From a virus, in the IMG/VR virus record IMGVR_UViG_3300027833_000096, positions 1 to 41,843 of that record: DNA of 41,843 nt. One strand, given 5' to 3'. The notes beneath the pieces were generated by a model. The model had not been told where the DNA came from and did no database searches. It saw only the letters and a list, made by a program, of their open reading frames with translations. How positions within the stretch are numbered: the first letter of the stretch is position 1; each line of letters opens with the position of its first letter. Shown here piece by piece: positions 3,904 to 24,263 of the stretch. The translations under genes were made by a program, and so were the position numbers.

Positions 3904-5292
3904 TTAATTAAGTGTACTAATAATTACTAATTTCTTTTTAGGTCTACTTGTAGCTACATATAAAGACTGAAATTTAGTTTTATGACTTGTAGCTCTAACA
4001 TTCATTATATTATCTTCAAATACATAAGCATTTCTATAAGTACTACCTTGACTTTTATGAGAAGTAATAGCGTAAGCATACTGAATATCTGCTACACTAT
4101 TAAGAAGTTCATAATACTTTTTGTATTTACTAACTTCTATTAAACTTTGTAAATCTCTTTTAAAATCAAAAATACTTTCTTTAGAAATTACTGGAACTTC
4201 TATATTAGTATTATTTATAGTTCTAAGTTTCAATTTTAAGATTTTATAACCTTTCTTATGTACTCCTTCTCTAATTCCTTGTACACTATATATATCAGAG
4301 TTATGAGTAACTACTTTTCCATTAGGTAAAGCAAAAGAAGTAAAAGAAATAACTCTTTCTCCTATTACATAGTCTTTTTTTGACTCTTCTTCTCCCCATA
4401 TATGGTTTCTTACCTCTTTATTTATATGTTTACGAGCTTGATTCGTATAAACTAGAGCTCTTGCATAGTTTAAGTCATCTTTTGCTTCTTCTTTTTGTAA
4501 ATCTAAACAAAGATTATAAATAGCTTGAGGAACACTCTTAGTAAAGATTATTCCTTCATCTTTTTCTCTATCATATATAGTTTTTCTATGTTTACTCTGT
4601 AAAGGTATAGAATTAAAGTAAGTATTGTTGTCAATAGCTTCTATAGAATCTGCATATACGTCTGTTATAGGAATAATAGGAGATTCTTTTTCTTGTCTCA
4701 TCCTTTCTTTTAATTCTGAAGAAAAGAAACAATCAAATGTAGGACTATTTTTATCTTTAAATAATCCTTCATCTCCTGGTCTTATAGGAGGAAGTTGATG
4801 ATAATCTCCTAAATAAACAACTTTACAATGTTTACTTTTATATTTCTTTATAAGAGTAATTAAGTCTTCTCCAACCATAGAACACTCATCTATTATAAGA
4901 ATATCAGCAGTTTCTATAGGAATACCAAACTGTCTTCTAGAAAATTCATCTATCTCAAAAGTACCTTTATTAACATTAAGCTTCATTCCTAAAATACTTG
5001 CAATAGTATGAACTTCATCTACAGTACTTCCTAAGCTATCTGATAATACATTTTTAGCAGCATGAGAAGGAGCAGCAGCCATTATATAAGTATGAGACAT
5101 TGTAATTTGTTCTACTACTTTTTTTATAATTGTTGTTTTTCCTGTACCTCCTTTACCTATAAGAGTAAAAGAATCTTTATTTTCTTTTATAGGACTTTTT
5201 AGAAACTCAATAGTAGCATCTATAGCTATTTTTTGTTCTTCATTAGCAAATACATTATCAAATAACTCATATTTATTTTTTACTTTATTCAT
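3904..5292 (-). CDS. SF1 DNA helicase, RecD/Dda-like
   Basis: A 462-aa superfamily-1 helicase with motifs in order: Walker A GKGGTGKTT (46-54), Walker B IIDECSM (about 133-139), motif III YLGDYHQLPPI, motif V AITSHKSQGSTY, and motif VI YVATSRPKKKLVI near the C-terminus. The compact size and HKSQGST match Dda/RecD2-type 5'-3' helicases, which unwind DNA during phage replication and recombination. It lies in the leftward operon between an 89-aa unknown gene and the DUF932-like gene. All catalytic motifs look intact. Confidence 0.9.
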   Translation of the reverse strand: MNKVKNKYELFDNVFANEEQKIAIDATIEFLKSPIKENKDSFTLIGKGGTGKTTIIKKVVEQITMSHTYIMAAAPSHAAKNVLSDSLGSTVDEVHTIASILGMKLNVNKGTFEIDEFSRRQFGIPIETADILIIDECSMVGEDLITLIKKYKSKHCKVVYLGDYHQLPPIRPGDEGLFKDKNSPTFDCFFSSELKERMRQEKESPIIPITDVYADSIEAIDNNTYFNSIPLQSKHRKTIYDREKDEGIIFTKSVPQAIYNLCLDLQKEEAKDDLNYARALVYTNQARKHINKEVRNHIWGEEESKKDYVIGERVISFTSFALPNGKVVTHNSDIYSVQGIREGVHKKGYKILKLKLRTINNTNIEVPVISKESIFDFKRDLQSLIEVSKYKKYYELLNSVADIQYAYAITSHKSQGSTYRNAYVFEDNIMNVRATSHKTKFQSLYVATSRPKKKLVIISTLN

Positions 5293-7581: not shown

Positions 7582-8031
7582 TTATGCCTTATAAAGTTTT
7601 ACTGTATATTTTACACCTTCTTCAAGCGTATAGGCTTTGTGTGGTAGTACGTCATTTGATAGTGCAATACCGTCCGTATCTACTGCAACACCTTGATTGT
7701 ATTTAGTAGCTATTCCACTAAATTCAAAACAAGGCATAACACTATCTATAGGTAATGATTGCCCTTGCTTTAGTGCTTCATCTTTTTCATATTTTAAGTG
7801 ATAAAAGCAACTATCACAAAACTTATCGTGTTCTTCAGATTTGTACTTGCAAGTATTACACGAAACTCTAACATCATGTAACGATTCATTTTTAGAAACT
7901 AATCCATGTTCGTTCAGTAAATCACATATTTGTTGAGCCACTTCTTCTTTTCCTTTATAGCATATTGCTACTTCATACCCGTTTTCATCTATTATTACCC
8001 TCTTTTGTTTTTTTCCTACTCTATATTTCAT
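7582..8031 (-). CDS. Cys-rich putative zinc-binding protein (149 aa), accessory island
   Basis: The centre holds CNTCKYKSEEHDKFCDSCFYH (about residues 59-78), two CXXC pairs that would form a zinc ribbon. Another Cys (CFEFSG) and a VDTDGIALSNDVLPHKAY segment follow. The N-terminus is basic (RVGKKQKRV). Base composition is higher in G+C than the flanking operons. The upstream sequence (8075-8123) is a copy of a long intergenic repeat that could be its leader or promoter. Function unknown. Confidence 0.6.
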   Translation of the reverse strand: MKYRVGKKQKRVIIDENGYEVAICYKGKEEVAQQICDLLNEHGLVSKNESLHDVRVSCNTCKYKSEEHDKFCDSCFYHLKYEKDEALKQGQSLPIDSVMPCFEFSGIATKYNQGVAVDTDGIALSNDVLPHKAYTLEEGVKYTVKLYKA

Positions 8032-8074: not shown

Positions 8075-8123
8075 TTGTATGCAATTAAAAAAGACATACA
8101 ACAATAAATATAAATAATAAGGC
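8075..8123 (-). repeat. 49-bp direct repeat, copy 1
   Basis: Matches 8219-8267 with one mismatch; the period is 144 bp. It contains an inner inverted repeat TTGTATG / CATACAA around an A-tract. Read on the minus strand it lies some 45-90 bp upstream of the 149-aa gene, so it may be a duplicated promoter or leader element. Confidence 0.8.
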
Positions 8124-8218
8124 TTGTAAGGTCGCTACTTCTTACCACTGTGTTTGTTCGGGTGTTCACTCACCTTTATAAGCTATCGAGTGTGCCTTAC
8201 TATTCATATTCTTTGCCA

Positions 8219-8267
8219 TTGTATGCAATTAAAAAAGACATACAACAATAAATATAAATAATAGGGC
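8219..8267 (-). repeat. 49-bp direct repeat, copy 2
   Basis: Second copy of the 8075-8123 element (one A/G difference at 8264). Its right-hand 26 bases are also the left arm of a perfect inverted repeat with 8339-8364. Confidence 0.8.
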
Positions 8268-8364
8268 GGTGGAAATCTAAGTCTAAGTCCTTATTGGTTA
8301 TTAATACAAAACCACCTTCAGTTTTTTTAATTTATAAAGCCCTATTATTTATATTTATTGTTGT
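8242..8364. repeat. 26-bp perfect inverted repeat enclosing a 71-nt centre
   Basis: Arms 8242-8267 and 8339-8364 are exact reverse complements. Inside, GGTGG (8268-8272) can pair with CCACC (8312-8316), extending the fold. As RNA it would be a long stable hairpin; as DNA it could be a recombination or protein-binding site. A less perfect arrangement of the same kind (arms ending AAGGC and GCCTT) is formed by 8101-8123 with 8194-8216. Confidence 0.75.
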
Positions 8365-23834: not shown

Positions 23835-23983
23835 CTAACTTCTATTTAATATCAATCTCTTTTTCCTCTTCTCTTTATTAATAATCTATGCAAACACCTT
23901 CTTCTTCTTTATTAAAAACAAAACTATATCCTCTACTATAATATCTTCTAATATAAATTTTTTATAAATTTTTTATATCTTAT

Positions 23984-24015
23984 CTTGACTTTTATATATA
24001 TTATTATTATATTTA
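23984..24015 (+). promoter_or_regulatory. Rightward promoter P1 in repeat copy 1
   Basis: CTTG (23984-23987), 20-nt spacer, TATATTTA (24008-24015), the Bacteroidota -33/-7 layout. The same bases also read TTGACT, 17 nt, TATATT, a good sigma70-type pair. Start is expected near 24021. Confidence 0.6.
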
Positions 24016-24116
24016 CAAAGCCGAAGCGATAAAAGAAGTATAATAATTTTTATATTATTATTTATATTATTATTTATCTTATTATATAAATTTTTTATAA
24101 ATTTTTTATATATTAT

Positions 24117-24148
24117 CTTGACTTTTATATATATTATTATTATATTTA
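24117..24148 (+). promoter_or_regulatory. Rightward promoter P2 in repeat copy 2
   Basis: Exact duplicate of P1 shifted by 133 bp: CTTG (24117-24120), 20 nt, TATATTTA (24141-24148). Two such promoters in series would raise rightward transcription. Confidence 0.6.
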
Positions 24149-24217
24149 CAAAGCCGAAGCGATAAAAGAAGTATAATAATTTTTATATTATTATTTATAT
24201 TATTATTTATCTTATTA

Positions 24218-24263
24218 TATAAATTTTTTATATCTTATTATATAAATTTTTTATATCTTATTA
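24218..24263. repeat. Two 23-bp AT repeats after the tandem duplication
   Basis: Copies at 24218-24240 and 24241-24263, derived from the left end of the 133-bp unit (TATAAATTTTTTATATC-type). The run continues the AT-rich array downstream of P2. Confidence 0.75.

Follow-up and report, generated by a model that had tools for sequence, protein, structure and literature searches.

The window, which is the whole 41.8-kb stretch of DNA analyzed here and a virus record with DNA polymerase, primase, ligase and portal genes, carries a locus that is probably best understood as two tandem ORF-less integron-like cassettes holding an RNA within an attC-like loop, of a type residing in marine Bacteroidota-type phages. 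This reading is built on the observed architecture of the locus, the dispersal of sharp-edged modules, the pairing of arms, covariation in the core of unit B and the many cores carried by one chassis. Accordingly conceived, each cassette would consist of an attC-like hairpin plus a 27-nt palindromic connector providing complementary R' and R'' boxes, and the apical loop, the 'variable terminal structure' of attC sites, would serve as slot for an 80-nt structured RNA on the coding strand of the operon. Single-stranded phage DNA may fold into the attC-like sites, and an integron-type integrase supplied by the host or another element could then swap the folded single-strand cassettes between CATACAA and the following C. 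The RNA, in turn, might be made from the operon transcript containing the hairpin, be stabilized by the long closing stem, and possibly act as a small functional RNA.

A direct repeat of 49 nt (8075–8123 and 8219–8267, 98% identity, period 144) and a perfect inverted repeat with 26-bp arms (8242–8267 and 8339–8364) enclosing 71 nt are found exactly where the first-pass annotation had placed them, and the GGTGG/CCACC pairing it described within the loop is present as well. Likewise, the less perfect version of this fold claimed for the first repeat copy exists, as the latter pairs with 8194–8216 on the minus strand via G-U pairs and with one mismatch. When permitting three mismatches, 44 nt of the repeat give two matches in the window versus none in 100 shuffles, and folding of the region is characterized by z values of –7.4 on the minus and –6.2 on the plus strand. 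Each repeat copy additionally bears its own hairpin of the type TTGTATG-loop-CATACAA. As the flanking genes are on the minus strand, this was taken as the sense strand; read in this direction, each unit of about 144 nt shows the order 5' arm, structured core of about 80 nt, 3' arm and 27-nt hairpin (Table 1).

Table 1. Features of the two-cassette locus, with positions in the window, and loci bearing the motif of the sister core.
Feature	Position	Strand	Basis or remark
Cassette A: 27-nt connector and attC-like hairpin with putative structured RNA core A	8219–8363	–	144-bp period; relatives L023 and L074; right edge would be 8362 or 8363, judged from module edges
Unit A 5' arm	8339–8364	–	Exact complement of unit A 3' arm; unlike relative L023
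Unit A core (loop) with GGTGG/CCACC stem	8268–8338	–	Weak covariation in unit A
Unit A 3' arm	8242–8267	–	Inverted repeat and fold
Connector hairpin 1, sense TTGTATG-TCTTTTTTAATTG-CATACAA	8219–8245	–	Exact 27-mer, 73 virus stretches
Cassette B: 27-nt connector and attC-like hairpin with putative structured RNA core B	8075–8218	–	144-bp period; relative L091, 7 compensatory pairs
Unit B 5' arm	8194–8216	–	G-U-containing pairing with unit B 3' arm
Unit B core, branched RNA fold	8124–8193	–	Compensatory changes versus L091
Unit B 3' arm	8098–8123	–	Repeat and comparison with L091
Connector hairpin 2	8075–8101	–	Repeat match; 27-mer
Downstream gene, 149 aa, DUF2616 below cut-off only	7582–8031	–	3' part recurs in L077
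Sister-core motif	L020 cassette core; L100 2470–2560; L101 2362–2666; L102 about 1480–1565; L103, L104, L105, L106, L107

Downstream of the cassettes, the 149-aa gene has a final third that recurs at 88% DNA identity in another virus (L077, 3001–3170) behind a different N-terminal part, placing a mosaic joint within the gene. A type III toxin-antitoxin system (ToxIN-like), in which a toxN-like gene would follow tandem RNA repeats, was considered for the locus and is disfavored, with the downstream gene giving only DUF2616 below cut-off and no PHROG match. Elsewhere in the window, at 23942–24262, two tandem 133-bp copies (98% identical) together with shorter AT-rich repeats occupy a non-coding stretch ahead of divergent plus-strand genes; this stretch may serve as origin or control region.

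With its sole relative (L091), unit B shares a common fold of 30 pairs showing seven compensatory changes and no broken pair. For the core, six compensatory pairs were counted versus 0.9 in column shuffles (0 of 200 reaching six; z of –6.5), this covariation being that of two sequences only, in line with the repeated RNA proposed in the first-pass annotation. A motif search for unit B gave, beyond L091, matches devoid of the arms and resembling coding sequence. Relatives of unit A are L023, with a core of about 98% identity, and L074, with a diverged loop, while no others were found by core search, and covariation in this unit is weak. The 5' arm of unit A departs from that of L023 exactly so as to complement its own 3' arm, whereas L023 combines a nearly identical core with an ordinary G-U-containing arm. 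Hence, the perfect inverted repeat appears to be particular to this copy, one arm having been rewritten to match the other, and is best read as an imperfect palindrome probably corrected from its own other arm. Such a later correction would account for the perfect repeat without any inversion. Inversion of the loop by recombination, for which the arms had initially been thought long enough, is disfavored by the single orientation in which cores are held between the arms (0 reversed among 50 distinct cores).

In line with the non-autonomous mobile element unit that had been suggested as well, the element recurs in dozens of other viruses and in varied contexts, so that both a second occurrence outside the locus and covariation, on which the initial idea hinged, were found. 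The exact 27-mer of the connector is present in 73 IMG/VR virus stretches and in 3 of 84,980 species genomes, with two of the three genome contigs appearing viral by eye; when one mismatch was permitted, 1 of 300 Flavobacteriaceae, namely strain BBFL7, was found to have it. Nearly always, a contig contains one copy. Among 63 distinct contexts, the base following CATACAA is C in 87%, after which conservation drops to background, and on the opposite side of the 27-mer the arm is conserved over about 18 nt. Moreover, of 54 upstream contexts, 8 are seen again in front of other DNA. This sharp edge after CATACAA(C), together with upstream contexts joined to new downstream DNA, indicates that the hairpin closes a module. 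Counter to a strict cassette logic, some copies of one and the same RNA have differing connectors or spacers. The 27-mer itself was at first read as the center of an attC site; this was dropped, as the module edges and the BBFL7 array favor a connector plus an attC site with cargo, inverted relative to the phage genes.

Qi et al. (2023) described attC sites in the Polaribacter phage P12002L, of which attC2 recombines with IntI1 (PMC9892861). P12002L carries the same half-sites as the elements described here, both halves of the 27-mer among them. In the chromosome of Flavobacteria bacterium BBFL7, ten attC-like sites of about 120 nt are lined up within 14 kb in one orientation (L129–L131, scaffold positions 122270–136111), between genes located mostly on the other strand and with the 27-mer lying within the array, and near the array one site encloses a 41-aa ORF. 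A tyrosine recombinase (PF00589) was found neither in the window nor in 29 related virus records (30 in total), while controls were positive in 14 genomes. Similarly, no integron integrase above cut-off was detected in BBFL7 or among 300 Flavobacteriaceae, with the latter search giving no control match and the same model scoring 329 bits in another genome elsewhere. The missing integrase, degenerate R'' boxes and mixed connectors are indicative of attC-like cassettes without a known motor rather than of a complete integron.

The arm pairs follow the layout AAC, spacer, stem half, terminal structure, stem half, shorter spacer and GTT. Scanning for this anatomy resulted in 117 sites in 93 marine viral loci versus 2–3 in shuffles, in one site in 18 loci from other phages used as controls (0–1 in shuffles) and in four sites in P12002L (0–1 in shuffles). 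As the viral loci had partly been chosen by their arms, the independent weight rests on P12002L and BBFL7. R-box ends of the AAC...GTT type are found across the family; the window keeps the GTT side, with the AAC side being degenerate in unit B (CATACAAT). Degenerate R boxes in the window (CATACAAT and CATACAAA in place of CATACAAC) suggest that the copies there may be inactive. As known from attC sites, the L stems are complementary at poor sequence conservation, evident from pairing with the own arm (0 of 5000 permutations) and from the compensated arm pairs of unit B. Unpaired asymmetric central spacers of about 6–7 and 2–5 nt are present between the R and L stems, whereas at the position of extrahelical bases on the R''-L'' arm the units of the window show a mismatch and not a clear bulge. 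With 131 nt, the attC-like site of unit B is within the range of published attC sites (57–142 nt), for which an unpaired spacer and a possibly complex and branched terminal structure have been described (PMC2727003). In stems picked by Watson-Crick pairs only, the sense strand shows 223 G-T wobbles versus 28 A-C, counts that are not independent as many stems share descent. The strand with the wobbles runs antisense to the array genes of BBFL7, in agreement with an attC bottom strand. The phages have it as their coding strand, corresponding to cassettes inverted relative to the phage genes; there, the RNA and the attC bottom-strand readings predict the same strand and are inseparable by wobble count.

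Modules upstream of the 27-mer have RNA-type arms in 37 contexts, whereas in 22 a stop codon lies at most 40 nt upstream. By a pattern search for the arms, 47 stretches were obtained, and about 50 RNA cores with the same arms are now known, mostly of 71–96 nt and grouped into about 22 families when a loose identity threshold is applied. Regarding ORF modules picked without regard to pairing, in those ending at the 27-mer (n = 22) the 5'UTR arm fits its own 3'UTR arm best (0 of 5000 permutations), and in the noisier set starting at the 27-mer (n = 51) own-arm pairing gave p = 0.008. Arms vary between modules, yet are complementary within each. The tested ORF modules, as well as positions 4843–4968 of L099, have small ORFs of about 30–120 aa between complementary 5'UTR and 3'UTR arms, that is, within an attC-like stem loop. 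Besides, some cores (L058, L083, L080, L037) show a motif resembling a tRNA T-arm, for example GGTTCGAGTCC, and ARAGORN called no tRNA at the core in two of the loci with this motif (among L058, L080 and L037). Rfam 15 at gathering score gave no match in the window or to the cores in scanned relatives, and tRNA and tmRNA searches of the window were likewise negative. BLAST of the locus against isolate phages returned noise only, and a concatenated query of 13 cores found no match.

A sister core (L020 and relatives), which is not that of the window, has matches of 79–93% identity and about 53 nt in 50 records of isolate phages, where the DNA concerned is mostly without annotation. These matches lie in or beside tRNA clusters of T4-like, T5-like, Vequintavirinae and RaK2-type phages, and also inside a group I intron of a split DNA polymerase gene. 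The sister-core RNA occurs in two arrangements that are circular permutations of each other. Its motif, GAAYAAGGGTT..AGTA..CAAACGAGTAACCCCGAAAGACCC..GCTCTTAGG, is RNA-like, and an Rfam scan of the loci with the sister core assigned no family to it. The stable RNAs of phage T4, rnaC and rnaD, resemble it in being phage non-coding RNAs at a tRNA locus, as in the T4-like phage G2469. However, none of the sister-core motifs is found in the T4 tRNA region (rnaC/rnaD), and the likeness is that of neighborhood only.

Going beyond the reading of integron-like cassettes, it is conceivable, albeit quite tentatively, that one folded stem is at the same time a DNA mobility signal and an RNA scaffold, with at least 20 unrelated structured RNAs or very small ORFs as cargo inside a recombination hairpin of marine Bacteroidota viruses. 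The mover would then be a recombinase not yet recognized, as none was found in the viruses or the sampled host family. From T4-type phages, mobile promoter/stem-loop cassettes are known, which are scattered between genes as stem-loops and associated with the shuffling of genes among phages; these are not known to have attC-type ends or RNA cargo. An analogous role as mobile regulatory linkers, with intergenic hairpins giving homology for ordinary recombination and shaping transcripts in the absence of a site-specific recombinase, is an unlikely explanation here. It is in line with viruses having no recombinase, with conserved 5' leaders ahead of different ORFs and with hairpins swapped independently of cores, but arms covarying per module are at odds with sequence homology, which would need identical arms. 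The attC-type ends and spacers, the orderly one-orientation array of BBFL7 and the attC activity proven in P12002L (PMC9892861) also speak against it.

Rather improbable, too, is a function at the RNA level only, where the arms would be stems that process or protect the individual genes or small RNAs within a polycistronic transcript, comparable to RNase III-type sites, and dispersal would be incidental to mosaicism. While the excess of G-U over A-C on the sense strand, the covariation in unit B and the RNA shared with tRNA clusters agree with such a role, it leaves unexplained why the wobble strand of BBFL7 is antisense to the array genes, and conflicts with sharp module edges and attC ends. 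Finally, a MITE-like non-autonomous transposon with terminal inverted repeats is highly improbable: its hallmarks of inverted-repeat ends, missing ORF and dispersal are seen, but the arms differ across modules and are complementary inside each, unlike a transposase-binding end, the copy number per contig is nearly always one, and the elements are located at gene borders with no target duplication by eye.

Bacterial protein genes are the cargo for which integron cassettes are mainly known. In the integrase-less phages studied here, the attC-like loop of the integron-like cassettes apparently offers room for functional RNAs, so that a single pattern is enough to retrieve about 22 phage RNA families. 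One of these has ties to an RNA without a name that lies within tRNA clusters of T4- and T5-like phages. Both the 27-mer and the chassis can be used for mining, in the search for the missing recombinase and in tests of phage small RNA function. In the open-access literature, no account of structured RNAs or ORFs inside an attC loop was found, which is weak evidence. Closest are the phage attC sites and CALINs, notably of P12002L, having the same half-sites and ends in virulent phages without integrase (PMC9892861); there, protein genes are outside the hairpin, whereas here the cargo, RNA or small ORF, is inside and cassettes are inverted relative to the phage genes. Also known are integron cassettes devoid of an ORF and a small RNA encoded by an integron, sRNA-Xcc1 (PMC8876359, PMC6557892), demonstrating, as proposed here, that a cassette without ORF is able to encode a regulatory RNA. 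The sRNA-Xcc1 type, however, is bacterial and carries an ordinary attC at its 3' end, whereas the phage RNAs, in about 22 families, would themselves be the terminal structure of the attC-like site. The Vibrio VCR (PMC2727003), finally, has a similarly long, branched and variable terminal structure at comparable total length, but its removal is of little consequence and no RNA is known to be encoded by it, in contrast to the diverse cores found here, one of which is a conserved RNA elsewhere.
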